This document shows, piece by piece, positions 42,901 to 64,000 of a stretch of DNA of 64,000 nucleotides. The stretch spans positions 46,970-110,969 of the forward strand of contig NW_026516336.1 in assembly GCF_025602895.1 (NCBI RefSeq), written 5' to 3'. The notes beneath the pieces are model-generated. The model saw only the letters and a program-made list of their open reading frames with translations. It did no database searches and was not told the origin of the DNA. This stretch comes from Polychytrium aggregatum. Its lineage: Eukaryota; Chytridiomycota; Chytridiomycetes; Polychytriales. The stretch's first letter is position 1; every line of letters starts with the position of its first letter. A program made the translations under genes and the position numbers.

Positions 42901-44097
42901 TTTTTTTTTTTTTGTTACTATAGTCAACTTTATTCAAGAAGACAAGCCATCAGGTCCAACAGGTTGGTACCCCGGCACGTTGAGTAGTCAGGCAAGCCTA
43001 TTTACTCCTGTTGCAGCCTAGTGCTGCCTCAGCTGCCCACAAGGTCTGAGACCAAGCGGGTGAACACATTTTCGAGCAGTTCCCACAAGGGAACAGCAGG
43101 ATCGAGGGGAGGTCGGGGTGGTGGGGTGACAAGTGCTGGCACTATACTACGCTGTGATGAGGGTGCAGGGAGAGACTGCAAGGGCGGGACTACACTAAGT
43201 GTGGGAGTGGGTGGTGGTGCTGGGTGTGCACCAAGTGCAAATGTTCGGAAGGCATTGCGGGGAGCGGGTACATGAGCAGCAAGCGATCCAAGTGCGGGAG
43301 GGGTGCGACTGCGAGGGGGAGTGCGATCGAAACTGAGCAGGTCCAGCAGCTTGTCCACTGGTCCCACTCCGGCTATACCACTTTCCACCCAAGTCGGGTG
43401 GGCCGTCTTGAGGGCTGCGACCTTGCGGACCAGGACTTGATGCGGATCCACACACTGCTGTGCGTGGGTCCTGGTCAAGTCGATCCCGGATCCGTGTCGA
43501 GCCAGGTTCTTGCACTTGCGGTATCCAAACCTGAAGTGGCCTGGGAGAGCACCGAGTCGCCATCGGACCATGAACATGAGCATGACCATGGATCCTTGGT
43601 ACCCGCGAGCCTCCCAGAGTCCCGACATCTTGGTCGACGGGGTGCAGGCGGCGGTGAGTTGCTTGGAGCGGTCGAAGCCGTTCTTCATGTGGTCCTCGAA
43701 GATGAGGGTCTTGATCGGGACGGGCTGGGGTCGGGGCGGTCCGGGCGGCGGCGGCTGGTGTCGGGTCTTGCCTCGGTAGATCTCCGTGGCCGTGAGGGAG
43801 TGGTCGGCCTCTTGTCGGCGGACCACCATGGCCCAGTGCGGATCGGCTCGGACTCCTTGGCCGAGGAACTGGTCGGGGTGGTACGGCGCAATGATCTTGT
43901 TGCGCAGGATCATCGACAGCATCTTGTCGCCGTCAGAGACTTGGTCGTCCCAGCGGGCCCAGTTCTGCAGGGCCAGCATCTTGACACGGACCGACATCTT
44001 GGGGAGGCCGCAGTTGAGGTGCATGGCACCGACGGGAGTGCCGGGGCCGACGCGGAACATGGTGCGGAGGGCCGTCATCTGGGCGTCGTCGAGGCGG
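42901..44097 (-). mobile_element. telomere-array retrotransposon copy 1 (family 1, 5'-truncated)
   Basis: Starts at the left with 13 T (the poly(A) tail on the minus strand), then the shared 3' end (GTTACTATAGTCAACTTTAT on the plus strand). It carries the last 357 codons of ORF2 (43029 to 44097) and is cut at its 5' side exactly where the next element's poly(T) begins. It shows small sequence differences from the other copies, so it is an older or separate insertion. Confidence 0.92.
43029..44097 (-). pseudogene. ORF2 C-terminal fragment of copy 1
   Basis: Encodes the region after the RT domain, from R-L-D-D-A-Q-M-T-A-L-R-T to the terminal L-V-S-D-L-V-G-S. It retains the conserved H-A-Q-Q-C-V-D-P segment near a Cys/His-rich motif. 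No endonuclease or RT domain remains. Confidence 0.85.
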
Positions 44098-46880
44098 TTT
44101 TTTTTTTTTGTTTTGATAGTTGTATATTCAGGAATATTCAACATGCCATCAGTATCGCAGGATACCCGGCAGTGGGTGGCCAAGCTCGCTCATACACCCC
44201 TGTTGCGGCCTTCGCCGACTCTCCAGCCCACACGGCGAGCCATGCGGGTGAACACTCCCTCTAATAACTCCCAGAGGGAGTCGCACGTTTCCAGGTCCCT
44301 CTCAGGGATGTCGGGGGTTGGTTTATCCAAGTCTCCCTCTAGTATCAACTCGAACCCACTCCAGGGTTTGCTGTGCGGTGTTGGGTCTTGACTTGCCCTC
44401 AAGGGAGTGTGAGTTTGTCTGTGGGAGGGGTACTCGGGATTTATCTCGTATCCTGGGGTCTGACCTAGTCCCAAGTCATCGTCGGACTCTGGGATCGGGT
44501 CAGTACTTCGTCCTTGGGAGGGCGTGGGAACCACTCTCGGTTCAGGGCCGGGGACTGGATGTCTATTCGTCTCCCTGGCCCGGTTTCGGTCTCGGTTCGG
44601 GAGGGAGTCTTGGTTGCCATCAGGGGAGTACTCTGAGCCAGACTCTGAGACTGACTCTGAGGTTCCTCCCCAGTTCGACCCCGAGGCAAGGTCTGAGCTC
44701 GGTTCGGGGTGGTGGGGCTCTAAGTCCACACTCTGGTCGGAGTGAGGTACTAAGTCCCCACCAAGGTCAGAGTGAGGCACTAGGTCCCCACTATGATCGG
44801 AGTGGGATACTAAGTCCAAACTCTGGTCAGTGTCCCAGCAGTAGTGTCTTCCACTATCGAGAGACAGTTCGTCAAGCTCGTCCCAGATTGGTCTCGGCGT
44901 TGGGTCGGTTCTTACCAAGAAGTCAAAGTCAATGTCGTAGTCTGACACTGAGCTGACTTCAGAGCCAAGGTCCGAGTCCACTTCGGGGCCAGTCAGTCGG
45001 AGCCTCCCCATCCGAGCAATCACTCCCGGTAGAGAGCTCCAGAGCCGATCTCGATCATCAAAGTCGTCGTCTACATCAGCATCACTGATGCCAGTGTCAT
45101 CATCTGTATCCGAGACTATTGATGCGATCAAAAGCCCCGGTCTCTCCCCTCGCTTCCCCACCGAGTGATTATTATTGTTATTGCCATGTCTCTCTCTCCC
45201 TGGTGTTTGGGTTCCCACACCAGTGTGCTGCTGTTGCTCTTCTCTATCCTTCTTGGCTTCAAACTCCAGCAAGTCAAGCAGCATGTCTATAGGCCCCACT
45301 CCTTCGACTGTGGGTTTGACCCAGCTTGGGTGGGTCCGTGCGAGTTCGTTGACCTTTCTTGCCAAGATGCCTTTGGGGTCGACGCATCTTTGAGCGTGGG
45401 AACGGTTAAGGTCTACTTTGATTCCGTTCTTGGAGCACCATCGGCAGGGTCTGCTTCCTCCCTTGGTGTGTCCTGGGAATATCCCAAGTCGCCATCGAAT
45501 CATTAGCTCGAGGATAGGCTGACTACCTGTGTATCCCTCGGCTCTCCACAGTGCCGACATCGAGGTTGTCGGTGTGCATGCAGCTGTGAGTTGTTGGTCT
45601 CGTTTGAACGCTGTCCTCATGTGTTCTGTGAGGATGGCTTCTCGCAGAGGGATCGCCAAGTCGTCCTCTTGGGCAGCCTGGGCTCGCTGTCGATGTCGTG
45701 CTCGTCCGTTAGCCGGGTCTGGGAATGCTCGAAGATACCTGTTCTTCCGTAGGTCCCGGGCTAGTCGCAGTGTCCACTCTGGGTTGTTGCAGAGTAGTGG
45801 TCTATCGGGGTCGAGGAACGGGTGGAACCAGCTCCTTTGTGTCCCTATGGTTTTGTCCTTCTTCCTTAAGGCCGACGCTTCCGTTCCAAGGAAGGCCTCG
45901 GTCGCTGTCAATTCAGGATTGGTGTCCTGCCTGGCCATTAGTCGTTGCCAGTGTTTGTCTTGCAACAGCTTGTGTCCAAGGAATTGCTCGCCTGTGAACG
46001 GGGGTGAGCGGGTGTTTCTGAGGACGATCGATATCATCTTTGAGTTGTCTGCGATCTCGTCGTCCCATCTTGCCCATGTCTGGAGTGCCAGTATCTTTGC
46101 TCGCATCGACATCTTTGGTAGTCCACAGCTGATGTGCATTGCTCCTATCGATGTCCCTGGTCCTGCGCGGAAGAGTGTGCGGAGGGCCGTCATCTGTGCT
46201 TCGTCGATACGGTCCTGCTGGTCGCTTGGGAGGAGGTCCAGGGCCAGTCCGTATTCGAGTGTCGGTCTAATGAAGGTCCGATAGACTCTGACAAGCGTCC
46301 TTGCCGATGCCGTTCCCAGTCGGGCTCCGACCTTGATCATGTAGTCTGTCGCCATCTTGGTCTTGTCGATCAAGTGGTCGATCTGGCGACTAACTCTGAA
46401 ACCATCCACATCGATGATCGCACCGAGGTACTTGTATTCTTGGACCTCTGGCAGCTTCTCTCCGTAGAGATAGATGCCATCAGACCGATCGGGGTTTGCG
46501 GCCGAGAAGATGGCTTCACACTTCTTGGGTGCGAACCTATACCGATTGTCAATGCTGTGTTGTTCGCAGAGTGCCAGGAGTCTTTGGGTCGATCCCGGGG
46601 ACCCGATCAGCACTCCGTCGTCTGCGAACCAGAGCGAATTGACTCTGATCGACGACCGGCCGTTGATTCTCAGCTGGACGTCTTGATGTGGGGTTGAGCC
46701 TTGGGGTCCGATCTTGTGCCTGAGGATCTCGGGCAGATCGTCAATAAACGCACTGAACAAGAGCGGACTAAGTACCGAACCTTGGATCAGCCCCTTCTGG
46801 AGCCACACTGGTTCCGACCGGCGTCCTTTGCTTGCAACTCGGACTTGGGTCCTGTCGAACATTGCCTTCAGGATCCCTAG
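44098..46880 (-). mobile_element. telomere-array retrotransposon copy 2 (divergent family 2, 5'-truncated)
   Basis: Begins with 12 T followed by its own 3' end sequence (GTTTTGATAGTTGTATATTC), unlike family 1. It lacks ORF1, the endonuclease and part of RT, and ends at 46880, where the next poly(T) starts. The same orientation and the same kind of junction show that two related families use the same mode of attachment. Confidence 0.9.
44190..46880 (-). pseudogene. ORF2 fragment of family 2: RT and long acidic C-terminus
   Basis: Open from the 5' junction to 44190, about 896 codons. The RT part has G-L-I-Q-G-S-V-L-S-P-L-L-F, the active-site box W-F-A-D-D-G-V-L-I and Y-L-G-A-I-I-D-V-D-G-F; the domains before motif 3 are missing. 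A C-terminal knuckle C-R-W-C ... H-A-Q-R-C-V-D-P is intact. After it comes a Ser/Asp/Gly-rich extension of about 280 residues with a short repeat (S-D-x-x-x-D-L-V-P-H), absent from family 1. It is open throughout apart from the missing 5' part. Confidence 0.88.
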
Positions 46881-49800
46881 TTTTTTTTTTTTTTTGTTAC
46901 TATAGTCAACTTTATTTAAGAAGACAAGCCATCAGGTCCAACAGGTTGGTACCCCGGCACGTTGAGTACACAGGCAAGCCTATTTACTCCTGTTGCAGCC
47001 TAGTGCTGCCTCAGCTGCCCACAAGGTCTGAGACCAAGCGGGTGAACACATTTTCAAGCAGTTCCCACAAGGGAATAGCAGGATCGACGGGAGGTCGGGG
47101 TGGTGGAGTGACAAGTGCTGGCACTATACTACGCTGTGATGAGGGTGCAGGGAGAGACTGCAAGGGTGGGACTACACTGGTTGTGGGAGTGGGTGCTGGT
47201 ACTGGGTGTGCACCAAGTGCGAATGCTCGGAAGGCAGTGCGGGGAGCGGGTACATGAGCAGCAAGCGATCCAAGTGCGGGAGGGGTGCGAGTGCGAGGGG
47301 GAGTGCGATCGAAAGAGAGCAGGTCCAGCAGCTTGTCCACTGGTCCCACTCCGGCTATACCACTTTCCACCCAAGTCGGGTGGGCCGTCTTGAGGGCTGC
47401 GACCTTGCGGACCAGGACTTGATGCGGATCCACACATTGCTGTGCGTGGGTCCTGGTCAAGTCGATCCCGGATCCGTGTCGAGCCAGGTTCTTGCACTTG
47501 CGGTATCCGAACCTGAAGTGGCCTGGGAGAGCACCGAGTCGCCATCGGACCATGAACATGAGCATGACCATGGATCCTTGGTACCCGCGAGCCTCCCAGA
47601 GTCCCGACATCTTGGTCGACGGGGTGCAGGCGGCGGTGAGCTGCTTGGAGCGGTCGAAGCCGTTCTTCATGTGGTCCTCGAAGATGAGGGTCTTGATCGG
47701 GACGGGCTGGGGTCGGGGCGGTCCGGGCGGCGGCGGCTGGTGTCGGGTCTTGCCTCGGTAGATCTCCGTGGCCGTGAGGGAGTGGTCGGCCTCTTGTCGG
47801 CGGACCACCATGGCCCAGTGCGGATCGGCTCGGACTCCTTGGCCGAGGAACTGGTCGGGGTGGTAGGGCGCAATGATCTTGTTGCGCAGGATCATCGACA
47901 GCATCTTGTCGCCGTCAGAGACTTGGTCGTCCCAGCGGGCCCAGTTCTGCAGGGCCAGCATCTTGACACGGACGGACATCTTGGGGAGGCCGCAGTTGAG
48001 GTGCATGGCACCGACGGGAGTGCCGGGGCCGACGCGGAACATGGTGCGGAGGGCCGTCATCTGGGCGTCGTCGAGGCGGTCGCGCAGAGCCGGGTCCGGG
48101 ATGTCCATGGCCATCCCGTATTCGAGGGTCGGCCGCACAAAGGTCTTGTAGACCTGGGTGATGGTCTTGGCCGAGACCTTGCCGAGGGTGATGCCAAGTC
48201 CAACCACGGTGTCGGTGACCATGTGGACCTTGCGGAGGAGCTTGTCGAACTGGAGGTCCGGGCGGAATCCGTCAATGTCGACCATGACACCGAGGTAGCG
48301 GAACTGGAGGACCTTGGGCAGCTCGGTGCCGTACAGCTTGGCGGGATGGAGCTGGTCGACGTTGCAGGCCGAGTACAGCACCTCGCACTTGGGAGGCGAG
48401 AAGCGGTAGCGATTGTCGACACTGTGACGCTCACAGATGTCCAGCATGGCCTGGGTGCGGCCAGCCGGACAGATGAGGACACCATCGTCGGCAAACCAGA
48501 GCGAGTTGACCCGGAGACGGTGGTGGCGACTGGAGGCAAGCACAAGTCCGTCCTCGGCTCGGAGCAGTCCAGGCAGGTCGTCAATGTGGGCACTGAACAG
48601 AAGGGGACTCAGGACCGAGCCTTGGATGAGACCCTTCTGCAGCCACACAGGCTGTGACGTGCGGCCCTTGCTGGCGACGCGGACAAGAGTGCGGTCGAAC
48701 ATGGCCCTGAGGACCCCGACGGCGACCGGACCAGCACCTCGGGCGGCGATCTTGTCCCAGAGGCGCTCCCGCCAGACAGTGTCGTAGGCGGCCTTGATGT
48801 CGAGGAAGACCAGGCTGTACTCGTCGTCGCAGATCTTGTTCATGCGGACAAGAGCGTCGAGCGAGTACACCTGGTCGAGGGTGCCTCGGTCCGGGCGGAA
48901 GCCTCCCTGGGCAATGTCCATGATGCCGATCTCGCGGGTGAGGAACGGCAGCAGGACTCGCTCGGCGATCTTGCGGAGGACCTGGGTCAACCCGATGGGC
49001 CGGTACATGGCCGGATCGAGGATCGAACCCTTGTTCTTGTAGACCGGGTGGATCAGGACAGTGTTCCACTCGGTCGGGACGACGGAGGCCTTGAGGGCGG
49101 CCAGCAGGATGGCCCGGAGCCAGGGAGCGACCACGGGAGCGACAGGGTGCAGCATCTCGGCCTTGATCTTGTCCGGGCCGGAGGACTTGCGCTTGGGGGA
49201 CTTGACGATGGCATCGGCCACCTCGTCCGACGACAAGCGGGGAATGGATCGATCCTCGGGGAGCAGGCGCGGAACAGTGTCCAGGGGTCTTGGGCCGACG
49301 GTCCGGTCAAAGGCGGCACCGGGGGTGTCCTGGGAGTGCGAGGAGACCTTGCCGTAGTGGACCACAAGTCGCTCGAGGGCCTCGTCCGAGTTGTCAAAGT
49401 GGAAGGCGTCGTCGAGCTCCTTGCGCTTCTTCATGGCGGCCAGGGACTTGGCGACCTCGGAAGCGTTGAGTGAGTGCAGCTTGTTCATGGCCAGGGTCTC
49501 GGCTGCTCGGCGGGACTGGACGATGAGGTTCTTTTCTTGTTTGCGGACAGCGCGGAGTTCGGCGCGCTTGTCCTCGGCGACGCGGAGGGAGAGCCCGGGC
49601 AACTTGAGCTGGTAGATGAGATCGCGGCGCCTCTCGCGAAGCTGCCGCATCTCGGGGATCAGGGCCGGGTCCTTCCAGACGGTCTTGATGGAAGCCTTGC
49701 CGATGGTGGAGTCGGCAGCGGTGGTGATCAGGGCGATCATGATGGACCAGGCGCGGTCGATGCAGTCCTGGGCCGCACTCTCCGAGATCGGAATGACCGA

Positions 49801-50599
49801 TCCCCTTGAGATTGGCCGGAGTGCAGCCTGTATGCGCTGCAGACCGCGTTCGCGCTCGTCCAGCAGCGCCAAGAGGTACTGGGCGCGGACGGCGGGATCC
49901 TCGAGCTGGGCGATCTTCCACTGCCATTGGTCGACCTTTGGGTAGTACTTTGGCTGTACCCGCAGAGTCGCCCAGATGGGGAAGTGGTCGGACTGGCCAC
50001 GGAAGGCACCGGCAGTGTCGACCTGCAGCAGCGGGTCGTTGTTGGCCTGGCGATGCGACACAAAGATGTAGTCGATCGTTGTCCAGCTGGGACCCCGCTG
50101 CCGGGTGTGGGTCGGGATCACAGCTGGAGGCACAACGCGGAGACCGGCGCGGGAGACAGTGTCCTCGAGGATCTTCTCCCTGCCACGGAGCGGCGTGGGC
50201 AGTCCGCTCAGGGCACTGAGGTGGGCATTGAAGTCACCCACCACAATGACCTGGGCGTCGGGGAGGGCGGCCTTGGTGTGGATCGACTGGAGGGCCTCGC
50301 GGTAGTCGTCCAGCTTGAGGCTCGGGGACAGGTAGAAGTTGCCGATGTGGATGACGTGTTTGTATGTCACCCACATGGCGTCGCCCTTGTCGCTGACTTC
50401 AATGTTGGTGAAGTCGTGCGGGTCGATCCTGGCCGGGTTGTAGAGGATGGCGATGCCTCTACCGGCGCGGCAACGGGGACCAGGGACCTTGACGGCATAG
50501 CCACAGAGAGGGCTGCGGGGTTCGAGGTCGGCGAGGGTTTCTTGGACACCGACAAAGTCGATGTCGTTGGTGTCGATGAGGTTCTTGAGTTCAACGTCG
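46881..50599 (-). mobile_element. telomere-array retrotransposon copy 3 (family 1, lacks ORF1)
   Basis: Begins with 15 T. It contains ORF2 almost complete but stops 28 codons inside it at 50599, where the poly(T) of copy 4 follows. ORF1 and the 5' UTR are missing. No telomere repeats lie at either junction. Confidence 0.93.
47011..50599 (-). pseudogene. ORF2 of copy 3, missing its first 28 codons
   Basis: An intact frame of about 1196 codons with apurinic-type endonuclease residues (V-Q-E-T-L, V-V-G-D-F-N-A-H-L, T-I-D-Y-I-F, S-D-H-F-P) and the RT domain with F-A-D-D. The first endonuclease motif (S-F-N-V-C-G-I-N) is lost at the truncation. By chance the frame continues into the adjoining poly(A) and adds lysines. 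Confidence 0.9.
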
Positions 50600-50729
50600 T
50601 TTTTTTTTTTTTTTGTTACTATAGTCAACTTTATTTAAGAAGACAAGCCATCAGGTCCAACAGGTTGGTACCCCGGCACGTTGAGTACACAGGCAAGCCT
50701 ATTTACTCCTGTTGCAGCCTAGTGCTGCC

Positions 50730-53700
50730 TCAGCTGCCCACAAGGTCTGAGACCAAGCGGGTGAACACATTTTCAAGCAGTTCCCACAAGGGAATAGCAG
50801 GATCGACGGGAGGTCGGGGTGGTGGAGTGACAAGTGCTGGCACTATACTACGCTGTGATGAGGGTGCAGGGAGAGACTGCAAGGGTGGGACTACACTGGT
50901 TGTGGGAGTGGGTGCTGGTACTGGGTGTGCACCAAGTGCGAATGCTCGGAAGGCAGTGCGGGGAGCGGGTACATGAGCAGCAAGCGATCCAAGTGCGGGA
51001 GGGGTGCGAGTGCGAGGGGGAGTGCGATCGAAAGAGAGCAGGTCCAGCAGCTTGTCCACTGGTCCCACTCCGGCTATACCACTTTCCACCCAAGTCGGGT
51101 GGGCCGTCTTGAGGGCTGCGACCTTGCGGACCAGGACTTGATGCGGATCCACACATTGCTGTGCGTGGGTCCTGGTCAAGTCGATCCCGGATCCGTGTCG
51201 AGCCAGGTTCTTGCACTTGCGGTATCCGAACCTGAAGTGGCCTGGGAGAGCACCGAGTCGCCATCGGACCATGAACATGAGCATGACCATGGATCCTTGG
51301 TACCCGCGAGCCTCCCAGAGTCCCGACATCTTGGTCGACGGGGTGCAGGCGGCGGTGAGCTGCTTGGAGCGGTCGAAGCCGTTCTTCATGTGGTCCTCGA
51401 AGATGAGGGTCTTGATCGGGACGGGCTGGGGTCGGGGCGGTCCGGGCGGCGGCGGCTGGTGTCGGGTCTTGCCTCGGTAGATCTCCGTGGCCGTGAGGGA
51501 GTGGTCGGCCTCTTGTCGGCGGACCACCATGGCCCAGTGCGGATCGGCTCGGACTCCTTGGCCGAGGAACTGGTCGGGGTGGTAGGGCGCAATGATCTTG
51601 TTGCGCAGGATCATCGACAGCATCTTGTCGCCGTCAGAGACTTGGTCGTCCCAGCGGGCCCAGTTCTGCAGGGCCAGCATCTTGACACGGACGGACATCT
51701 TGGGGAGGCCGCAGTTGAGGTGCATGGCACCGACGGGAGTGCCGGGGCCGACGCGGAACATGGTGCGGAGGGCCGTCATCTGGGCGTCGTCGAGGCGGTC
51801 GCGCAGAGCCGGGTCCGGGATGTCCATGGCCATCCCGTATTCGAGGGTCGGCCGCACAAAGGTCTTGTAGACCTGGGTGATGGTCTTGGCCGAGACCTTG
51901 CCGAGGGTGATGCCAAGTCCAACCACGGTGTCGGTGACCATGTGGACCTTGCGGAGGAGCTTGTCGAACTGGAGGTCCGGGCGGAATCCGTCAATGTCGA
52001 CCATGACACCGAGGTAGCGGAACTGGAGGACCTTGGGCAGCTCGGTGCCGTACAGCTTGGCGGGATGGAGCTGGTCGACGTTGCAGGCCGAGTACAGCAC
52101 CTCGCACTTGGGAGGCGAGAAGCGGTAGCGATTGTCGACATGCTGTGACGCTTCACAGATGTCCAGCATGGCCTGGGTGCGGCCAGCCGGACAGATGAGG
52201 ACACCATCGTCGGCAAACCAGAGCGAGTTGACCCGGAGACGGTGGTGGCGACTCGGAGGCAAGCACAAGTCCGTCCTCGGCTCGGAGCAGTCCAGGCAGG
52301 TCGTCAATGTGGGCACTGAACAGAAGGGGACTCAGGACCGAGCCTTGGATGAGACCCTTCTGCAGCCACACAGGCTGTGACGTGCGGCCCTTGCTGGCGA
52401 CGCGGACAAGAGTGCGGTCGAACATGGCCCTGAGGACCCCGACGGCGACCGGACCAGCACCTCGGGCGGCGATCTTGTCCCAGAGGCGCTCCCGCCAGAC
52501 AGTGTCGTAGGCGGCCTTGATGTCGAGGAAGACCAGGCTGTACTCGTCGTCGCAGGATCTTGTTCATGCGGACAAGAGCGTCGAGCGAGTACACCTGGTC
52601 GAGGGTGCCTCGGTCCGGGCGGAAGCCTCCCTGGGCAATGTCCATGATGCCGATCTCGCGGGTGAGGAACGGCAGCAGGACTCGCTCGGCGATCTTGCGG
52701 AGGACCTGGGTCAACCCGATGGGCCGGTACATGGCCGGATCGAGGATCGAACCCTTGTTCTTGTAGACCGGGTGGATCAGGACAGTGTTCCACTCGGTCG
52801 GGACGACGGAGGCCTTGAGGGCGGCCAGCAGGATGGCCCGGAGCCAGGGAGCGACCACGGGAGCGACAGGGTGCAGCATCTCGGCCTTGATCTTGTCCGG
52901 GCCGGAGGACTTGCGCTTGGGGGACTTGACGATGGCATCGGCCACCTCGTCCGACGACAATCGGGGAATGGATCGATCCTCGGGGAGCAGGCGCGGAACA
53001 GTGTCCAGGGGTCTTGGGCCGACGGTCCGGTCAAAGGCGGCACCGGGGGTGTCCTGGGAGTGCGAGGAGACCTTGCCGTAGTGGACCACAAGTCGCTCGA
53101 GGGCCTCGTCCGAGTTGTCAAAGTGGAAGGCGTCGTCGAGCTCCTTGCGCTTCTTCATGGCGGCCAGGGACTTGGCGACCTCGGAAGCGTTGAGGGAGTG
53201 CAGCTTGTTCATGGCCAGGGTCTCGGCTGCTCGGCGGGACTGGACGATGAGGTTCTTTTCTTGTTTGCGGACAGCGCGGAGTTCGGCGCGCTTGTCCTCG
53301 GCGACGCGGAGGGAGAGCCCGGGCAACTTGAGCTGGTAGATGAGATCGCGGCGCCTCTCGCGAAGCTGCCGCATCTCGGGGATCAGGGCCGGGTCCTTCC
53401 AGACGGTCTTGATGGAAGCCTTGCCGATGGTGGAGTCGGCAGCGGTGGTGATCAGGGCGATCATGATGGACCAGGCGCGGTCGATGCAGTCCTGGGCCGC
53501 ACTCTCCGAGATCGGAATGACCGATCCCCTTGAGATTGGCCGGAGTGCAGCCTGGATGCGCTGCAGACCGCGTTCGCGCTCGTCCAGCAGCGCCAAGAGG
53601 TACTGGGCGCGGACGGCAGGATCCTCGAGCTGGGCGATCTTCCACTGCCATTGGTCGACCTTTGGGTAGTACTTTGGCTGTACCCGCAGAGTCGCCCAGA

Positions 53701-54409: not shown

Positions 54410-56691
54410 TGGAGTCGTGCAGCGCTGCTGCTGGCCCGGGGGCCCTCTCCTTCAGAGTCAGTGTCCATGACGGACAGCGGGACTCTGTAGGCGGGGTGAG
54501 GCTTGCTGGGCTTTGACGAGGCACCAGCGGCGGGGGCAGCAGCAGCAGCGACAGCAACGACAACGGCAGGGGCAGCGGTAGCGGCAGCGGCAGAGGCAGA
54601 CGACGAGGCAGCGGCAGCGGCAGAACCAGGGACCTTGGGGACGGCGGTGATGTCCGCCCGCTTGACCTCCTTGCCGGATAGGGCCTTCTTGAGGAGCGAG
54701 TCGTACTCGTCGCGGTACTCCTCGGGGATGCGCATCTGGATGCAGCGGCGGACAGGGGCGGTCTTGGCCTTGGCTGCCTGGCGGAGGGACTTTGCCATAA
54801 AGTTCTTGATGGCATCGGATCGGGACAGGGCCAGTCCATGGTGCTTGAGACCATGGATGACGTCGTAGGCCGGTACGACCCTGACCCTGCCATGTGTGGA
54901 CGACAGCGACTCCAGACGGGCACCAAGGTCGGCCTTGTTGGATTTGTCGCGGACAAGGACCTCCATGACCGTGGCCTCAGGGAAGTTGATCTCGGCCAAC
55001 TCCCTGGTGTCGATGCCGCATCGCTTGAGGTTGCGGCGGACACTGCCGAGGTCGCCACAGCGGATGCCCTCGACGTACAGCCAGTCCATGTTGGTGACGG
55101 CCTCCCTGAACTTGTCGTTCCGGAGCTCAGAGTTGGCGACCGTCCCGGGGACAAGGACTGGCTGGCGGTGCTGGTTGGGCTGGATCGGCTTGGAGGAGCC
55201 TGGCATTCGGCCGGTGGTCAGCATCCTCTTCCATTCGTCGAGCTGGCTGGCCTCGGACATGCGGCCGACACGGCTCTCGGCCTCCCGAACGTTCTTCAAG
55301 AGAGCGGCCTTGTACGAGGGAGACGGGGCGGAAACAGGGGCAGAGCCAGGGAGGGAGCCGGAGGACTGGGTCTTGGAACCGGGGGACTGGGTCTTGGGGG
55401 TGGCAGTCTTGTTGGCAACAGACTTGCGGAGCTGCTCCGTGGCACGGCTGATTGCCACATTGGACTTGGCGATCTTCTGGACCATGGCCTTGGTGGCAGC
55501 ATCCATGTTGTCGGCCACGAGTGCCTCGAACAGGATGGACTGCACCCGGTCAGCCTCTCGCTTGAGGATAGCGAGGGCCTCCTCGGGTTTCATCGCAGGG
55601 ACGGGAGCCTGGGACGGAGGAGGGGTCTTGGCCTTGACGACGGGTCGGGGCGGAAGGACGGGCCTGGCCTTGGGGACAGGGGACGCAGTGCCAACAGCAT
55701 CAACAGCTCGACGAGCTGGATCGACGGGGTCAGCAGTGGAAGCAGGGGCTGCTCGAGGGGCGCCTTCAGAGGCACCACGGGGGACGGCGCGCTGCTTGTC
55801 CATGGTCTTGAGGCCGCACTTGGTGTGGAAGTTCTCCTTGAACTTGTCCGAGAACGCATCCACAAACAGCTTGCGGGACTCCTTGGTGGTGCGGCTCATG
55901 TGGGCCCAGAACTGGAAGGCCGACATCTGGCCGGGGCAGGGTCCGTCCTCGAGGGCCTGGGGACACTTGAGCTGGAGCTCGTCCTTGCCGTGCTTGACGA
56001 CGATCCAGGGATCGGCCGAGGCGAGCTTGCACTTGCGGCACAGGACAGTGCACTGCAGCTTGGCGGTCACGGCCATCCACAGCTGGTTGTTCATCTTGGT
56101 GACGTCGATGATCTGGGTTGCAGCCTTCTGATCATCGACGTCGGACGAGGCGTGCCACTTGCGCCAGAACTCGTCGCGCCAAGGAACCGAGACGACGTCG
56201 GCACTGGGCTGGACAACAATGTCCATGGCACAGTGGTCTTGGTGGGGAGCGGCGGAGGAGGACACGGGAGCCAGGGACTCGGCAGGGTGGTCTTGGTCGG
56301 CACAGGAGGACGAGGGCTCAGCGTCAGGCTCTTGGTCCGGGCTGAGGTCTTCTTCGACATTGATGTCCTCCAGTTCATCAATGTCGACGGCGGCACGGGC
56401 GGCAGCGCGGTCCAAGGGCGGGAACGAAAAGTCGGGTTCGGCCGGGAACCTGAACTCGGGCGGGGCCGGGAGCCTGGACTCGGGCACGGACACGGACGGG
56501 AACTCGGACTCGGGGAGACGCTCGTCATGCTCCGGCCTGGGGAGCATGGTCATTGCGTCGGGCAAGGACAGGCGACGCTTGGCGGGGGAGGAAGGGGTGG
56601 CCACGGGTCGCTCCTTGCGCTTGAAGATCAAGCTGCCGACAGCGATGGTCGAGGCCGGGAGAAGGGACTGCTGGGGTCTGTCCTTGGACAT
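54406..56691 (-). CDS. ORF1 of copy 4, nucleic-acid-binding-type protein
   Basis: 761 residues. The acidic N-terminal third contains repeated F-P-A-E-P-type stretches. Near residues 217-250 a putative zinc-binding cluster appears (C-x2-C, then later C-x8-C). A Pro/Ala/Ser-rich linker follows, then a globular part with Y-V-E-G-I-R-C-G-D-L-G-S-V-R-R-N, and a basic/Ala-rich end. No standard CCHC gag-like knuckle was seen, so RNA binding is inferred from its position as ORF1 of a non-LTR element. Its stop overlaps the ORF2 start as ATGA. Confidence 0.88.
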   Translation of the reverse strand: MSKDRPQQSLLPASTIAVGSLIFKRKERPVATPSSPAKRRLSLPDAMTMLPRPEHDERLPESEFPSVSVPESRLPAPPEFRFPAEPDFSFPPLDRAAARAAVDIDELEDINVEEDLSPDQEPDAEPSSSCADQDHPAESLAPVSSSAAPHQDHCAMDIVVQPSADVVSVPWRDEFWRKWHASSDVDDQKAATQIIDVTKMNNQLWMAVTAKLQCTVLCRKCKLASADPWIVVKHGKDELQLKCPQALEDGPCPGQMSAFQFWAHMSRTTKESRKLFVDAFSDKFKENFHTKCGLKTMDKQRAVPRGASEGAPRAAPASTADPVDPARRAVDAVGTASPVPKARPVLPPRPVVKAKTPPPSQAPVPAMKPEEALAILKREADRVQSILFEALVADNMDAATKAMVQKIAKSNVAISRATEQLRKSVANKTATPKTQSPGSKTQSSGSLPGSAPVSAPSPSYKAALLKNVREAESRVGRMSEASQLDEWKRMLTTGRMPGSSKPIQPNQHRQPVLVPGTVANSELRNDKFREAVTNMDWLYVEGIRCGDLGSVRRNLKRCGIDTRELAEINFPEATVMEVLVRDKSNKADLGARLESLSSTHGRVRVVPAYDVIHGLKHHGLALSRSDAIKNFMAKSLRQAAKAKTAPVRRCIQMRIPEEYRDEYDSLLKKALSGKEVKRADITAVPKVPGSAAAAASSSASAAAATAAPAVVVAVAAAAAPAAGASSKPSKPHPAYRVPLSVMDTDSEGEGPRASSSAARLQ

Positions 56692-56800
56692 CGCTCAGCA
56701 GTGGGGAAGGGGACAGGGAGTGTGGGAGCGAGGGCGGGGAACTGGAGGGGCAGAGCTGGAACAAACACAGAGGTGAAAGCAGTGTGGTGCAGGCCACACG

Positions 56801-56938
56801 GTGCAGCAAGAGCAATACAGGTGCAGCAGGAGCAGGACAGGTGCAGCAAGAGCAGGACAGGTGCAGCAAGAGCAGGACAGGTGCAGCAAGAGCAGGACAG
56901 GTGCAGCAGGAGCAGGATAGGTGCGGCAGGAGCAGAGA
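56801..56938. repeat. 20-bp tandem repeat in the 5' region of copy 4
   Basis: Seven units of 20 bases, consensus GTGCAGCAAGAGCAGGACAG, the last one incomplete, lying between the ORF1 start and the telomeric tract. The same array, unit for unit, lies in copy 5 at 63213-63350. Confidence 0.95.
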
Positions 56939-56948
56939 ACTCGATGTG

Positions 56949-57016
56949 TCAGGGTTAGGTTAGGTTAGGTTAGGTTAGGTCAGGGTCAGGGTTAGGTTAG
57001 GTTAGGTTAGGTTAGG
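56949..57016 (+). repeat. interstitial telomeric tract between copies 4 and 5
   Basis: Starts with TCAGGG, continues in TTAGG pentamers with two TCAGGG variants in the middle, and runs straight into the 15-T tract of copy 5. The G-rich strand points to the chromosome end. Confidence 0.95.
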
Positions 57017-57146
57017 TTTTTTTTTTTTTTTGTTACTATAGTCAACTTTATTCAAGAAGACAAGCCATCAGGTCCAACAGGTTGGTACCCCGGCACGTTG
57101 AGTACACAGGCAAGCCTATTTACTCCTGTTGCAGCCTAGTGCTGCC

Positions 57147-60100
57147 TCAGCTGCCCACAAGGTCTGAGACCAAGCGGGTGAACACATTTTCGAGCAGTTC
57201 CCACAAGGGAACAGCAGGATCGAGGGGGGGTCGGGGTGGAGGAATGACAAGTGCTGACACTATACTACGCTGTGATGAGGGTGCAGGGAGAGACTGCAAG
57301 GGTGGGACTACACTGGGTGTGGGAGTGGGTGGTGGTGCTGGGTGTGCACCAAGTGCGAATGCTCGGAAGGCAGTGCGGGGAGCGGGTACATGAGCAGCAA
57401 GTGATCCAAGTGCGGGAGGGGTGCGACTGCGAGGGGGAGTGCGATCGAAACTGAGCAGGTCCAGCAGCTTGTCCACTGGTCCCACTCCGGCTATACCACT
57501 TTCCACCCAAGTCGGGTGGGCCGTCTTGAGGGCTGCGACCTTGCGGACCAGGACTTGATGCGGATCCACACACTGCTGTGCGTGGGTCCTGGTCAAGTCG
57601 ATCCCGGATCCGTGTCGAGCCAGGTTCTTGCACTTGCGGTAGCCAAATCTGAAGTGGCCTGGGAGAGCACCGAGTCGCCATCGGACCATGAACATGAGCA
57701 TGATCATGGATCCTTGGTACCCGCGAGCCTCCCAGAGTCCCGACATCTTGGTCGACGGGGTGCAGGCGGCGGTGAGCTGCTTGGAGCGGTCGAAGCCGTT
57801 CTTCATGTGGTCCTCGAAGATGAGGGTCTTGATCGGGACGGGCTGGGGTCGGGGCGGTCCGGGCGGCGGCGGCTGGTGTCGGGTCTTGCCTCGGTAGATC
57901 TCCGTGGCCGTGAGGGAGTGGTCGGCCTCTTGTCGGCGGACCACCATGGCCCAGTGCGGATCGGCTCGGACTCCTTGGCCGAGGAACTGGTCGGGGTGGT
58001 AGGGCGCAATGATCTTGTTGCGCAGGATCATCGACAGCATCTTGTCGCCGTCAGAGACTTGGTCGTCCCAGCGGGCCCAGTTCTGCAGGGCCAGCATCTT
58101 GACACGGACCGACATCTTGGGAAGGCCGCAGTTGAGGTGCATGGCACCGACGGGAGTGCCGGGGCCGACGCGGAACATGGTGCGGAGGGCCGTCATCTGG
58201 GCGTCGTCGAGGCGGTCGCGCAGAGCTGGGTCGGGGATGTCCATGGCCATCCCGTATTCGAGGGTCGGCCGCACAAAGGTCTTGTAGACCTGGGTGATGG
58301 TCTTGGCCGAGACCTTGCCGAGGGTGATGCCGAGTCCAACCACGGTGTCGGTGACCATGTGGACCTTGCGGAGGAGCTTGTCGAACTGGAGGTCCGGGCG
58401 GAATCCGTCAATGTCGACCATGACACCGAGGTAGCGGAACTGGAGGACCTTGGGCAGCTCGGTGCCGTACAGCTTGGCGGGATGGAGCTGGTCGACGTTG
58501 CAGGCCGAGTACAGCACCTCGCACTTGGGAGGCGAGAAGCGGTACCGGTTGTCGATGCTGTGGCGTTCGCAGATATCCAGCATGGCCTGGGTGCGGCCAG
58601 CCGGACAGATGAGGACACCGTCATCGGCAAACCAGAGCGAGTTGACCCGGAGACGGTGGTGGCGACTCGAGGCAAGCACAAGTCCGTCCTCGGCTCGGAG
58701 CAGTCCAGGCAGGTCGTCAATGTGGGCACTGAACAGAAGGGGACTCAGGACCGAGCCTTGGATGAGACCCTTCTGCAGCCACACAGGCTGCGACGTGCGG
58801 CCCTTGCTGGCGACGCGGACAAGAGTGCGGTCGAACATGGCCCTGAGGACCCCGACGGCGACCGGACCAGCACCTCGGGTGGCGATCTTGTCCCAGAGGC
58901 GCTCCCGCCAGACAGTGTCGTAGGCGGCCTTGATGTCGAGGAAGACCAGGCTGTACTCGTCGTCGCGGATCTTGTTCATGCGGACAAGAGCGTCGAGCGA
59001 GTACACCTGGTCGAGGGTGCCTCGGTCCGGGCGGAAGCCTCCCTGGGCAATGTCCATGATGCCGATCTCGCGGGTGAGGAACGGCAGCAGGACTCGCTCG
59101 GCGATCTTGCGGAGGACCTGGGTCAACCCGATGGGCCGGTACATGGCCGGATCGAGGATCGAACCCTTGTTCTTGTAGACCGGGTGGATCAGGACAGTGT
59201 TCCACTCGGTCGGGACGACGGAGGCCTTGAGGGCGGCCAGCAGGATGGCCCGGAGCCAGGGAGCGACCACGGGAGCGACAGGGTGCAGCATCTCGGCCTT
59301 GATCTTGTCCGGGCCGGAAGACTTGCGCTTGGGGGACTTGACGATGGCATCGGCCACCTCGTCCGACGACAATCGGGGAATGGAGCGGTCCTCGGGGAGC
59401 AGGCGCGGAACAGTGTCCAGGGGTCTTGGGCCGACGGTCCGGTCAAAGGCGGCACCGGGGGTGTCCTGGGAGTGCGAGGAGACCTTGCCGTAGTGGACCA
59501 CAAGTCGCTCGAGGGCCTCGTCCGAGTTGTCAAAGTGGAAGGCGTCGTCGAGCTCCTTGCGCTTCTTCATGGCGGCCAGGGACTTGGCGACCTCGGAAGC
59601 GTTGAGGGAGTGCAGCTTGTTCATGGCCAGGGTCTCGGCTGCTCGGCGGGACTGGACGATGAGGTTCTTTTCTTGTTTGCGGACAGCGCGGAGTTCGGCG
59701 CGCTTGTCCTCGGCGACGCGGAGGGAGAGCCCGGGCAACTTGAGCTGGTAGATGAGATCGCGGCGCCTCTCGCGAAGCTGCCGCATCTCGGGGATCAGGG
59801 CCGGGTCCTTCCAGACGGTCTTGATGGAAGCCTTGCCGATGGTGGAGTCGGCAGCGGTGGTGATCAGGGCGATCATGATGGACCAGGCGCGGTCGATGCA
59901 GTCCTGGGCCGCACTCTCCGAGATCGGAATGACCGATCCCCTTGAGATTGGCCGGAGTGCAGCCTGGATGCGCTGCAGACCGCGTTCGCGCTCGTCCAGC
60001 AGCGCCAAGAGGTACTGGGCGCGGACGGCAGGATCCTCGAGCTGGGCGATCTTCCACTGCCATTGGTCGACCTTTGGGTAGTACTTTGGCTGTACCCGCA

Positions 60101-60821
60101 GAGTCGCCCAGATGGGGAAGTGGTCGGACTGGCCACGGAAGGCACCGGCAGTGTCGACCTGCAGCAGCGGGTCGTTGTTGGCCTGGCGATGCGACACAAA
60201 GATGTAGTCGATCGTTGTCCAGCTGGGACCCCGCTGCCGGGTGTGGGTCGGGATCACAGCTGGAGGCACAACGCGGAGACCGGCGCGGGAGACAGTGTCC
60301 TCGAGGATCTTCTCCCTGCCACGGAGCGGCGTGGGCAGTCCGCTCAGGGCACTGAGGTGGGCATTGAAGTCACCCACCACAATGACCTGGGCGTCGGGGA
60401 GGGCGGCCTTGGTGTGGATCGACTGGAGGGCCTCGCGGTAGTCGTCCAGCTTGAGGCTCGGGGACAGGTAGAAGTTGCCGATGTGGATGACGTGTTTGTA
60501 TGTCACCCACATGGCGTCGCCCTTGTCGCTGACTTCAATGTTGGTGAAGTCGTGCGGGTCGATCCTGGCCGGGTTGTAGAGGATGGCGATGCCTCTACCG
60601 GCGCGGCAACGGGGACCAGGGACCTTGACGGCATAGCCACAGAGAGGGCTGCGGGGTTCGAGGTCGGCGAGGGTTTCTTGGACACCGACAAAGTCGATGT
60701 CGTTGGTGTCGATGAGGTTCTTGAGTTCAACGTCGTTGACGTTGATGCCACAGACATTGAAGGAAGCGACGGTCAGGGATGTCTGGGCCCTGCCGCCTCC
60801 CTGCGAGGGGTGTGGATTCAT
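57147..60821 (-). CDS. ORF2 of copy 5: AP-type endonuclease and reverse transcriptase
   Basis: 1224 residues. The N-terminal endonuclease/exonuclease/phosphatase domain (about 20-245) has its catalytic set in place: S-F-N-V-C-G-I-N, V-Q-E-T-L, G-D-F-N-A-H-L, T-I-D-Y-I-F and S-D-H-F-P. The RT domain (about 490-780) has Y-R-P-I-G-L-T, F-L-D-I-K-A-A-Y-D near 630, G-S-V-L-S-P-L-L-F, F-A-D-D near 730 (the catalytic Asp pair) and Y-L-G-V-M-V-D. The C-terminal part has H-G-S-G-I-D-L-T-R-T-H-A-Q-Q-C, a degenerate zinc knuckle, then a Pro-rich segment. Translation probably starts by re-initiation at the ATGA overlap with ORF1. Confidence 0.96.
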   Translation of the reverse strand: MNPHPSQGGGRAQTSLTVASFNVCGINVNDVELKNLIDTNDIDFVGVQETLADLEPRSPLCGYAVKVPGPRCRAGRGIAILYNPARIDPHDFTNIEVSDKGDAMWVTYKHVIHIGNFYLSPSLKLDDYREALQSIHTKAALPDAQVIVVGDFNAHLSALSGLPTPLRGREKILEDTVSRAGLRVVPPAVIPTHTRQRGPSWTTIDYIFVSHRQANNDPLLQVDTAGAFRGQSDHFPIWATLRVQPKYYPKVDQWQWKIAQLEDPAVRAQYLLALLDERERGLQRIQAALRPISRGSVIPISESAAQDCIDRAWSIMIALITTAADSTIGKASIKTVWKDPALIPEMRQLRERRRDLIYQLKLPGLSLRVAEDKRAELRAVRKQEKNLIVQSRRAAETLAMNKLHSLNASEVAKSLAAMKKRKELDDAFHFDNSDEALERLVVHYGKVSSHSQDTPGAAFDRTVGPRPLDTVPRLLPEDRSIPRLSSDEVADAIVKSPKRKSSGPDKIKAEMLHPVAPVVAPWLRAILLAALKASVVPTEWNTVLIHPVYKNKGSILDPAMYRPIGLTQVLRKIAERVLLPFLTREIGIMDIAQGGFRPDRGTLDQVYSLDALVRMNKIRDDEYSLVFLDIKAAYDTVWRERLWDKIATRGAGPVAVGVLRAMFDRTLVRVASKGRTSQPVWLQKGLIQGSVLSPLLFSAHIDDLPGLLRAEDGLVLASSRHHRLRVNSLWFADDGVLICPAGRTQAMLDICERHSIDNRYRFSPPKCEVLYSACNVDQLHPAKLYGTELPKVLQFRYLGVMVDIDGFRPDLQFDKLLRKVHMVTDTVVGLGITLGKVSAKTITQVYKTFVRPTLEYGMAMDIPDPALRDRLDDAQMTALRTMFRVGPGTPVGAMHLNCGLPKMSVRVKMLALQNWARWDDQVSDGDKMLSMILRNKIIAPYHPDQFLGQGVRADPHWAMVVRRQEADHSLTATEIYRGKTRHQPPPPGPPRPQPVPIKTLIFEDHMKNGFDRSKQLTAACTPSTKMSGLWEARGYQGSMIMLMFMVRWRLGALPGHFRFGYRKCKNLARHGSGIDLTRTHAQQCVDPHQVLVRKVAALKTAHPTWVESGIAGVGPVDKLLDLLSFDRTPPRSRTPPALGSLAAHVPAPRTAFRAFALGAHPAPPPTPTPSVVPPLQSLPAPSSQRSIVSALVIPPPRPPLDPAVPLWELLENVFTRLVSDLVGS

Positions 60822-63103
60822 TGGAGTCGTGCAGCGCTGCTGCTGGCCCGGGGGCCCTCTCCTTCAGAGTCAGTGTCCATGACGGACAGCGGGACTCTGT
60901 AGGCGGGGTGAGGCTTGCTGGGCTTTGACGAGGCACCAGCGGCGGGGGCAGCAGCAGCAGCGACAGCAACGACAACGGCAGGGGCAGCGGTAGCGGCAGC
61001 GGCAGAGGCAGACGACGAGGCAGCGGCAGCGGCAGAACCAGGGACCTTGGGGACGGCGGTGATGTCCGCCCGCTTGACCTCCTTGCCGGATAGGGCCTTC
61101 TTGAGGAGCGAGTCGTACTCGTCGCGGTACTCCTCGGGGATGCGCATCTGGATGCAGCGGCGGACAGGGGCGGTCTTGGCCTTGGCTGCCTGGCGGAGGG
61201 ACTTTGCCATAAAGTTCTTGATGGCATCGGATCGGGACAGGGCCAGTCCATGGTGCTTGAGACCATGGATGACGTCGTAGGCCGGTACGACCCTGACCCT
61301 GCCATGTGTGGACGACAGCGACTCCAGACGGGCACCAAGGTCGGCCTTGTTGGATTTGTCGCGGACAAGGACCTCCATGACCGTGGCCTCAGGGAAGTTG
61401 ATCTCGGCCAACTCCCTGGTGTCGATGCCGCATCGCTTGAGGTTGCGGCGGACACTGCCGAGGTCGCCACAGCGGATGCCCTCGACGTACAGCCAGTCCA
61501 TGTTGGTGACGGCCTCCCTGAACTTGTCGTTCCGGAGCTCAGAGTTGGCGACCGTCCCGGGGACAAGGACTGGCTGGCGGTGCTGGTTGGGCTGGATCGG
61601 CTTGGAGGAGCCTGGCATTCGGCCGGTGGTCAGCATCCTCTTCCATTCGTCGAGCTGGCTGGCCTCGGACATGCGGCCGACACGGCTCTCGGCCTCCCGA
61701 ACGTTCTTCAAGAGAGCGGCCTTGTACGAGGGAGACGGGGCGGAAACAGGGGCAGAGCCAGGGAGGGAGCCGGAGGACTGGGTCTTGGAACCGGGGGACT
61801 GGGTCTTGGGGGTGGCAGTCTTGTTGGCAACAGACTTGCGGAGCTGCTCCGTGGCACGGCTGATTGCCACATTGGACTTGGCGATCTTCTGGACCATGGC
61901 CTTGGTGGCAGCATCCATGTTGTCGGCCACGAGTGCCTCGAACAGGATGGACTGCACCCGGTCAGCCTCTCGCTTGAGGATAGCGAGGGCCTCCTCGGGT
62001 TTCATCGCAGGGACGGGAGCCTGGGACGGAGGAGGGGTCTTGGCCTTGACGACGGGTCGGGGCGGAAGGACGGGCCTGGCCTTGGGGACAGGGGACGCAG
62101 TGCCAACAGCATCAACAGCTCGACGAGCTGGATCGACGGGGTCAGCAGTGGAAGCAGGGGCTGCTCGAGGGGCGCCTTCAGAGGCACCACGGGGGACGGC
62201 GCGCTGCTTGTCCATGGTCTTGAGGCCGCACTTGGTGTGGAAGTTCTCCTTGAACTTGTCCGAGAACGCATCCACAAACAGCTTGCGGGACTCCTTGGTG
62301 GTGCGGCTCATGTGGGCCCAGAACTGGAAGGCCGACATCTGGCCGGGGCAGGGTCCGTCCTCGAGGGCCTGGGGACACTTGAGCTGGAGCTCGTCCTTGC
62401 CGTGCTTGACGACGATCCAGGGATCGGCCGAGGCGAGCTTGCACTTGCGGCACAGGACAGTGCACTGCAGCTTGGCGGTCACGGCCATCCACAGCTGGTT
62501 GTTCATCTTGGTGACGTCGATGATCTGGGTTGCAGCCTTCTGATCATCGACGTCGGACGAGGCGTGCCACTTGCGCCAGAACTCGTCGCGCCAAGGAACC
62601 GAGACGACGTCGGCACTGGGCTGGACAACAATGTCCATGGCACAGTGGTCTTGGTGGGGAGCGGCGGAGGAGGACACGGGAGCCAGGGACTCGGCAGGGT
62701 GGTCTTGGTCGGCACAGGAGGACGAGGGCTCAGCGTCAGGCTCTTGGTCCGGGCTGAGGTCTTCTTCGACATTGATGTCCTCCAGTTCATCAATGTCGAC
62801 GGCGGCACGGGCGGCAGCGCGGTCCAAGGGCGGGAACGAAAAGTCGGGTTCGGCCGGGAACCTGAACTCGGGCGGGGCCGGGAGCCTGGACTCGGGCACG
62901 GACACGGACGGGAACTCGGACTCGGGGAGACGCTCGTCATGCTCCGGCCTGGGGAGCATGGTCATTGCGTCGGGCAAGGACAGGCGACGCTTGGCGGGGG
63001 AGGAAGGGGTGGCCACGGGTCGCTCCTTGCGCTTGAAGATCAAGCTGCCGACAGCGATGGTCGAGGCCGGGAGAAGGGACTGCTGGGGTCTGTCCTTGGA
63101 CAT
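60818..63103 (-). CDS. ORF1 of copy 5, nucleic-acid-binding-type protein
   Basis: 761 residues with the same sequence as ORF1 of copy 4: acidic N-terminus, a putative C-x2-C/C-x8-C zinc cluster near 217-250, a Pro/Ala-rich linker, a conserved globular segment and an Ala-rich tail. Its TGA shares bases with the ATG of ORF2 (ATGA at 60821-60818). In telomere-specific elements of insects the ORF1 protein directs the particle to telomeres; whether this one does is unknown. Confidence 0.9.
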   Translation of the reverse strand: MSKDRPQQSLLPASTIAVGSLIFKRKERPVATPSSPAKRRLSLPDAMTMLPRPEHDERLPESEFPSVSVPESRLPAPPEFRFPAEPDFSFPPLDRAAARAAVDIDELEDINVEEDLSPDQEPDAEPSSSCADQDHPAESLAPVSSSAAPHQDHCAMDIVVQPSADVVSVPWRDEFWRKWHASSDVDDQKAATQIIDVTKMNNQLWMAVTAKLQCTVLCRKCKLASADPWIVVKHGKDELQLKCPQALEDGPCPGQMSAFQFWAHMSRTTKESRKLFVDAFSDKFKENFHTKCGLKTMDKQRAVPRGASEGAPRAAPASTADPVDPARRAVDAVGTASPVPKARPVLPPRPVVKAKTPPPSQAPVPAMKPEEALAILKREADRVQSILFEALVADNMDAATKAMVQKIAKSNVAISRATEQLRKSVANKTATPKTQSPGSKTQSSGSLPGSAPVSAPSPSYKAALLKNVREAESRVGRMSEASQLDEWKRMLTTGRMPGSSKPIQPNQHRQPVLVPGTVANSELRNDKFREAVTNMDWLYVEGIRCGDLGSVRRNLKRCGIDTRELAEINFPEATVMEVLVRDKSNKADLGARLESLSSTHGRVRVVPAYDVIHGLKHHGLALSRSDAIKNFMAKSLRQAAKAKTAPVRRCIQMRIPEEYRDEYDSLLKKALSGKEVKRADITAVPKVPGSAAAAASSSASAAAATAAPAVVVAVAAAAAPAAGASSKPSKPHPAYRVPLSVMDTDSEGEGPRASSSAARLQ

Positions 63104-63212
63104 CGCTCAGCAGTGGGGAAGGGGACAGGGAGTGTGGGAGCGAGGGCGGGGAACTGGAGGGGCAGAGCTGGAACAAACACAGAGGTGAAAGCAGTGTGGT
63201 GCAGGCCACACG

Positions 63213-63350
63213 GTGCAGCAAGAGCAATACAGGTGCAGCAGGAGCAGGACAGGTGCAGCAAGAGCAGGACAGGTGCAGCAAGAGCAGGACAGGTGCAGCA
63301 AGAGCAGGACAGGTGCAGCAGGAGCAGGATAGGTGCGGCAGGAGCAGAGA
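63213..63350. repeat. 20-bp tandem repeat in the 5' region of copy 5
   Basis: Seven units, matching the array of copy 4 unit for unit. In the transcript of the element it would lie in the 5' untranslated region or promoter. Confidence 0.95.
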
Positions 63351-63360
63351 ACTCGATGTG

Positions 63361-63391
63361 TCAGGGTTAGGTTAGGTTAGGTTAGGTTAGG
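63361..63391 (+). repeat. interstitial telomeric tract between copies 5 and 6
   Basis: One TCAGGG followed by five TTAGG pentamers, then directly the poly(T) of copy 6. Confidence 0.95.
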
Positions 63392-63643
63392 TTTTTTTTT
63401 TTTTGTTACTATAGTCAACTTTATTTAAGAAGACAAGCCATCAGGTCCAACAGGTTGGTACCCCGGCACGTTGAGTACACAGGCAAGCCTATTTACTCCT
63501 GTTGCAGCCTAGTGCTGCCTCAGCTGCCCACAAGGTCTGAGACCAAGCGGGTGAACACATTTTCAAGCAGTTCCACAAGGGAATAGCAGGATCGACGGGA
63601 GGTCGGGGTGGTGGAGTGACAAGTGCTGGCACTATACTACGCT
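63392..63643 (-). mobile_element. telomere-array retrotransposon copy 6 (3' stub)
   Basis: 13 T, the family 1 3' UTR and about 120 bases of the ORF2 end, cut at ACTATACTACGCT and followed at once by telomere repeats. It has a one-base deletion in the ORF2 end (CAGTTCCACAAGG) relative to the other copies. It is the outermost element. Confidence 0.94.
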
Positions 63644-64000
63644 CAGGGTTAGGTTAGGTTAGGTTAGGTTAGGTTAGGTTAGGTTAGGTTAGGTTAGGTC
63701 AGGGTTAGGTTAGGTTAGGTTAGGTTAGGTTAGGTTAGGTTAGGTTAGGTTAGGTTAGGTTAGGTTAGGTTAGGTTAGGTTAGGTTAGGTTAGGTTAGGT
63801 TAGGTTAGGTTAGGTTAGGTTAGGTTAGGTTAGGTTAGGTTAGGTTAGGTTAGGTCAGGTTAGGTCAGGTTAGGTTAGGTTAGGTTAGGTTAGGTTAGGT
63901 TAGGTTAGGTTAGGTTAGGTTAGGTTAGGTTAGGTTAGGTTAGGTTAGGTTAGGTTAGGTTAGGTTAGGTTAGGTTAGGTTAGTTAGGTTAGGTTAGGTT
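63644..64000 (+). repeat. terminal telomere tract, (TTAGG)n
   Basis: About 357 bases, almost all perfect TTAGG pentamers, with CAGGG at the start, a TCAGGG at about 63699, TCAGG variants near 63855-63866 and one shortened unit near 63982. It runs to the end of the window with the G-rich strand 5'->3' toward the end, as at a chromosome's right telomere. The period is five, not the TTAGGG hexamer usual in fungi. Confidence 0.96.

Follow-up and report, generated by a model that had tools for sequence, protein, structure and literature searches.

The end of a chromosome of the chytrid Polychytrium aggregatum is occupied by a head-to-tail array of long interspersed nuclear elements (LINEs) that passes into telomere repeats. 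The array lies within a stretch of 64,000 nucleotides (the window; positions 46,970 to 110,969 of contig NW_026516336.1), which in the contig labels of this analysis, the C-numbers, is C40:46970–110969. Because C40 is 110969 bp long and stops at the right edge of the window, the terminal telomeric tract of the window is the contig end. Five of the six LINE copies belong to one family, here termed A, and one to a second family, B. It is likely that family A lives mainly at chromosome ends, where its copies would be primed by chromosomal 3′ ends that terminate in T and would later be capped by telomerase.

Structure of the terminal array

The copies occupy positions 42901–63642 in the order A1, B, A2, A3, A4 and A5, and all are minus-coding, with their 5′ ends outward (Table 1). 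Copy-to-copy alignment bears out the preliminary description of this DNA, which had recognized six co-oriented copies from two families of retrotransposons without long terminal repeats (non-LTR). A3 and A4 are full length and 99.3% identical, and the remaining four copies are 5′-truncated. All six proximal boundaries consist of a poly(A) 3′ end, whereas the 5′ ends vary. The two families are related, with approximately 74–76% identity over the alignable parts. Telomere repeats run without interruption into poly(T) exactly at the two junctions described earlier (57016/57017 and 63391/63392). The TTAGG tracts of that description are present after A3, A4 and A5, but each starts with TCAGGG instead of TTAGG. 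Neither a family A 3′ end in the opposite orientation nor (CCTAA)3 on the plus strand was found in the window, and comparison of the window with Rfam gave no match at the gathering score.

Genome-wide location and polarity

Genome-wide searches covered the assembly of 64.7 Mb in 418 contigs. Family A's 20-base 3′ end was matched exactly 198 times, compared with 0 matches for its backward-read control. Flanks were examined for 91 of the 198 occurrences; 46 of the 146 C-variant 3′ ends entered only where another search listed them. Location was assessed for 55 copies among those listed, on contigs with a known length of at least 200 kb, with terminal defined as within 60 kb of an end. Fifty-one of these copies lie within 60 kb of the contig end that is faced by their 5′ side, against approximately 8% expected, and random dispersal of the family is therefore rejected. 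The many internal copies in other orientations that the preliminary description had named as evidence against its reading are thus not seen among the listed copies. Exact 3′ ends of family B number 19; of the 15 that lie on contigs with a known length of 200 kb or more, 11 are terminal and face outward.

Joins in which telomere repeats pass into the poly(T) of family A (TTAGGTTAGG-T8) number 38 in the genome. A telomere-T8 search in which no element was named also returned 38 joins in the same places, all with family A and none with family B, and the reversed polarity was not found genome-wide (0 vs 38). Neither family B nor a third LINE type, encountered on C224, was found on telomere repeats. 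The polarity asserted in the preliminary description therefore holds and, together with the end localization, supports its reading that the telomere 3′ end serves as primer.

Family A is not strictly terminal, because internal copies exist. The check proposed in the preliminary description, whether copies lie only at contig ends, comes out positive for most of the listed copies and negative for those on C375, C112 and C68 (Table 1). Nine 61-bp probes of the C375 copy are 95–100% identical to A4, and a possible 5-bp target duplication, TCATC, was read by eye.

Joins between elements and chromosome ends

The 91 examined 3′ ends adjoin telomere repeats (30), family A (31), family B (6), family A in part (1) or other sequence (23), so that 61 of them sit on non-telomeric sequence. 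T runs of 9–19, corresponding to the poly(A) tail, are found at 89 of these ends, and the remaining two have 0 and 3. All 37 clear element-on-element joins are co-oriented, as is the single partial match, and they represent 28 distinct element positions, 22 in family A and 6 in family B. The next base of the underlying sequence is a native T at 23 of the 27 testable distinct joins, where 18% would be expected (p = 7e-14), and at 21 of 22 joins on family A. The co-orientation of the joins and the native T therefore imply that T-ending chromosome 3′ ends seem to prime on poly(A) RNA. At the telomeric joins, the phase TTAGG/T is observed in 30 of 30 examined cases. Nine distinct telomeric tracts lie under elements and measure 20–68 bp (one native 5-bp entry was dropped), and the two terminal tracts seen measure 356 bp (C40) and 338 bp (C39; 145 bp uninterrupted by a stricter pattern).

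The base of the window array provides a further view of the substrate. The 600 bp to the left of 42901 have near-identical paralogues on four other contigs (96–99%) and five more at 75%. The paralogue on C228 continues past the break point of the window, with T as its next base, and the paralogue on C220 ends with its contig exactly at the join. Neither strand of the window contains any of eight 14-mers taken from the host continuation. Together, the C228 continuation and the absent 14-mers indicate that this end appears to be stripped of its distal subtelomere, with retrotransposon from the break outward. A nested insertion behind the array is rejected, since no truncated copy resumes distally and the eight 14-mers are absent. 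On C224, the third LINE type joins the subtelomere by its 3′ end, GTTTACAATAGTTGTATATTC (C224:32150–32235), 21 bp beyond the break point of the window; the corresponding base in C228 is T.

Encoded proteins

By its predicted gene content, family A is an APE-type LINE with two open reading frames (ORFs), a 3′ poly(A) and variable 5′ truncation. ORF2 of A4 matches RVT_1 (2.4e-24) and Exo_endo_phos (1.7e-13), and its closest solved structures are those of L1 ORF2p. The EEP domain is among its matches and restriction-like endonuclease families are not listed there; the element's own endonuclease, anticipated in the preliminary description, is thus of the APE type, and the endonuclease motifs of the family are intact. 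For ORF1, comparison with Pfam and the PDB brought up no recognisable relative (best E 0.1). Between A2 and A4, 45 of 3588 coding nucleotides but only 12 residues are different, with a non-synonymous divergence (dN) of 0.005 and a synonymous divergence (dS) of 0.035, a pattern that indicates recent selection for protein function.

Capping of element ends

The first repeat after element 5′ ends in the window is TCAGGG (56949–56954, 63361–63366 and 63643–63648), which is also found within tracts. Beyond full-length 5′ ends, TCAGGG is followed by TTAGG (12 tracts examined, 17 genome-wide). Nine distinct tract starts comprise three with TCAGGG, one that starts from the element's own TCAGG, and five that continue from GG. 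TCAGGG was rejected as the 5′ end of the element itself, given that the internal C375 copy begins with CACATCG and that the truncated A5 also precedes CAGGG. Because the C375 copy lacks TCAGGG at its 5′ end, the repeat belongs to the telomere side, and its recurrence may reflect the telomerase RNA template.

The genome contains a TERT gene, with three Telomerase_RBD matches above the cut-off on C408. The same 4-kb stretch of C408 contains LLRFVDDFLIIS, which we take to be reverse transcriptase motif C; the exon frame that carries it had no PDB match at 0.001. Taken together, the sequences suggest that element ends are probably capped by telomerase. The earlier label of a mixed telomerase/retrotransposon system is apt given the TERT gene; end maintenance as a function, like any benefit to the host, is putative.

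Proposed mechanism and alternative explanations

In the proposed mechanism, the T-ending 3′ end of a short or uncapped chromosome would pair with the poly(A) tail of element RNA and prime its reverse transcription. The primer T would be provided by GGT or GGTT in the telomere, and by a T within a truncated subtelomere or an older copy. The resulting copy would have its poly(A) inward and its 5′ end outward. Thereafter either the outer end would erode and gain a further copy, or telomerase would cap it with TTAGG repeats, often with TCAGGG first. Terminal priming, as opposed to priming at a nick in the telomere, is likely; at truncated elements and host flanks, the one-way orientation together with the missing distal parts favors a free end. 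A broader proposal is that the chromosome ends of this telomerase-bearing fungus are habitually extended by the alternation of telomerase and an end-primed LINE, in which family A would answer short or uncapped ends, and family B and the third LINE would join eroded subtelomere. We advance it tentatively, a little short of calling it probable.

Several observations weigh against priming at free ends. The joins were gathered by means of an exact 3′-end motif, and many of them are found in duplicate on different contigs, so that independent events are fewer than the counts. The T rule holds poorly for joins on family B (2 of 5, with a single B copy as the reference), and the backward-read control of the telomere-T8 pattern gave 1 match, the controls of the other patterns giving 0. 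Inward-facing copies are found near an end on two contigs, C335 and C28 (134 kb), the latter at 130833–133857. The internal copies and the intact endonuclease motifs indicate that insertion by ordinary nick priming probably occurs too. Finally, the accessible part of the MoTeR paper suggests that short interstitial tracts are survivors of breakage (PMC7367193), and the short tracts seen here may likewise be such survivors instead of short targets. As a separate observation, the inward copies on C28 and C335 could be inverted tips or misassembly.

The phase of the telomeric joins, TTAGG/T in every case, also weighs on that side, as it is the same as the nick made by the TRAS1 endonuclease, TT^AGG, in the accessible part of its published description (PMC7265360), and because of this identity the two routes are inseparable by sequence at telomere repeats. 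The element endonuclease could thus nick TT^AGG in the G strand and prime there, with breakage and recombination making the remaining joins, an explanation that is compatible with free-end priming elsewhere. It agrees with the intact endonuclease motifs, with the restriction of all 38 telomere-T8 joins to family A, and with the 256-bp internal copy on C112 at GGTTAGG/T13. By contrast, the 61 examined 3′ ends on non-telomeric sequence, the uniform co-orientation of the 37 clear element joins and the shortness of all nine distinct telomeric tracts under elements are at odds with it, and we regard it as nearly an even proposition. Break-induced replication and rolling amplification between ends, with little fresh retrotransposition, are unlikely to have been the chief means by which the arrays spread. 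On C207 (4600–27743), a tandem two-copy unit consists of A 3562–6344, a 25-bp tract, A 3410–6344 and a 20-bp tract, and its repeats match A4 about equally (one copy at 100%, its partner at 99.7%, and the last, cut one at 99.3%). On C374 (34551–50119), four telomere-poly(T)-A joins are spaced every 5177–5178 bp, and identical joins recur on several contigs. The repeats on C207 and C374 resemble the array extension of MoTeR, as far as it is described in the accessible part of PMC7367193, and their sequences suggest that recombination also builds arrays on other contigs. The window array, however, with six proximal poly(A) 3′ ends and variable 5′ ends, fits reverse transcription, as does the T at 23 of 27 testable positions, although these joins were selected by their 3′-end motif and no search was aimed at recombination joins elsewhere.

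An assembly artefact at repetitive contig ends would be consistent with the small size of some tip contigs, with the inward copies on C28 and C335 near an end, and with the frame splits in ORF2 of A3, which are explicable as sequencing errors. Similar joins nevertheless turn up at varied positions across numerous contigs; they share one polarity and mostly have T, and C39 too begins in telomere repeats that are followed by A copies, which makes an artefact very improbable.

Table 1. Features of the window and copies of family A that depart from the terminal, outward arrangement (window coordinates unless a contig is given)
Feature	Position	Strand	Description
Family A copy A1	42901–44097	-	5′-truncated; 98.3% identity to A4
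Poly(T) of A1	42901–42913		Abuts subtelomeric host sequence
Family B copy	44098–46880	-	5′-truncated; poly(T) sits on the truncated end of A1; partial RVT_1
Family B partial ORF2	44190–46862	-	Open for 890 amino acids (aa), starting within the reverse transcriptase
Family A copy A2	46881–50599	-	5′-truncated close to where the endonuclease domain starts; aligned part 99.76% identical to A3
Family A copy A3	50600–56948	-	Full length; ORF1 open (54406–56691); ORF2 split between frames
TCAGGG/TTAGG tract, A3–A4	56949–57016	+	68 bp
Family A copy A4	57017–63360	-	Full length, 6344 bp with poly(T)15 counted; both ORFs open
A4 ORF2	57147–60821	-	1224 aa; predicted APE-type endonuclease (EEP) and reverse transcriptase; SDH and FADD motifs
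A4 ORF1	60818–63103	-	761 aa; no known domain; 4-bp overlap with the start of ORF2
A4 5′ untranslated region, 20-bp tandem repeats	63212–63347	-	
TCAGGG + (TTAGG)5 tract, A4–A5	63361–63391	+	31 bp
Family A copy A5	63392–63642	-	251 bp; extreme 5′ truncation
Terminal telomeric tract at contig end	63643–64000	+	356 bp by pattern
Copy on C68			444 bp, 94.8%; three T; old internal copy
Copy on C112			256 bp, internal, identical to A4; at a chance GGTTAGG/T13; no obvious target duplication
Copy on C375			Full length, internal, 462 kb from the nearer end; poly(A)14
Telomeric join on C335	C335:1834–1871		1.8 kb from the contig start; faces inward

Comparison with known systems

Published systems already include elements with outward 5′ ends and telomeres of mixed make-up; the comparisons in this section are with the accessible parts of the published accounts. 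MoTeR1 of Pyricularia oryzae and FoTeR of Fusarium oxysporum are fungal elements that, like family A, have their 5′ ends toward the chromosome end and adjoin telomere repeats. Truncated copies are shared with FoTeR, and interstitial tracts and array extension with MoTeR. Both carry a restriction-like endonuclease, whereas family A is an APE-type element with two ORFs and a poly(A) that stacks on non-telomeric truncated ends. Moreover, FoTeR was undetected at non-telomeric loci, in contrast to family A, which has a few internal copies. TRAS1 of Bombyx mori is likewise a non-LTR element in TTAGG repeats, and the 3′ end left by its nick, TTAGGTT, would be able to pair with poly(A). TRAS elements target the repeats internally, and a review describes only full-length copies at telomeres, while four of the six window copies are truncated and many family A joins are non-telomeric.

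HeT-A, TART and TAHRE of Drosophila share the head-to-tail arrays, the poly(A) toward the centromere and the terminal attachment. They are exclusively terminal and replace telomerase, unlike the present system with its TERT gene, TTAGG repeats and internal copies. GilM and GilT of Giardia, compared by description, form co-oriented arrays in which 5′ truncation is read as end erosion. Athena of rotifers, also compared by description, shares short telomere tracts at 3′ ends and has no endonuclease. Zepp1 of Chlorella and Tx1-1_ACar of the anole are telomere-associated LINEs named together with MoTeR and TRAS (PMC10088271). Among the papers listed by searches of the literature, which covered few subscription papers and were judged by title and abstract opening, none describes an APE-type fungal LINE that behaves in this manner. 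Family A would bring an APE-type endonuclease into a group of fungal telomere elements in which MoTeR and FoTeR use a restriction-like one.

End-priming has reportedly also been proposed for a LINE that still has its endonuclease, in the endonuclease-independent insertion of L1 at uncapped mammalian telomeres. That setting is said to be experimental and repair-deficient, whereas the use of ends by family A looks habitual. In our view, the way in which telomerase can coexist with a terminal retrotransposon is the missing middle step in explanations of the loss of telomerase in flies. If both do act naturally on the same ends, the joins there, in which the choice of primer is recorded base by base, would make this coexistence testable.

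Host sequence next to the array

The host part of the window has a GC content of 57% and includes a (CACT)51 microsatellite (34165–34369). In keeping with a fungal host, 11 matches to the fungal family Fungal_trans were obtained, and the best GH20 match is an Aspergillus enzyme. Several host ORFs near the chromosome end (3906–5408, 5962–7836, 12205–13329, 35658–38441 and 39734–41575) are rich in Sel1, WD40 and tetratricopeptide repeats.

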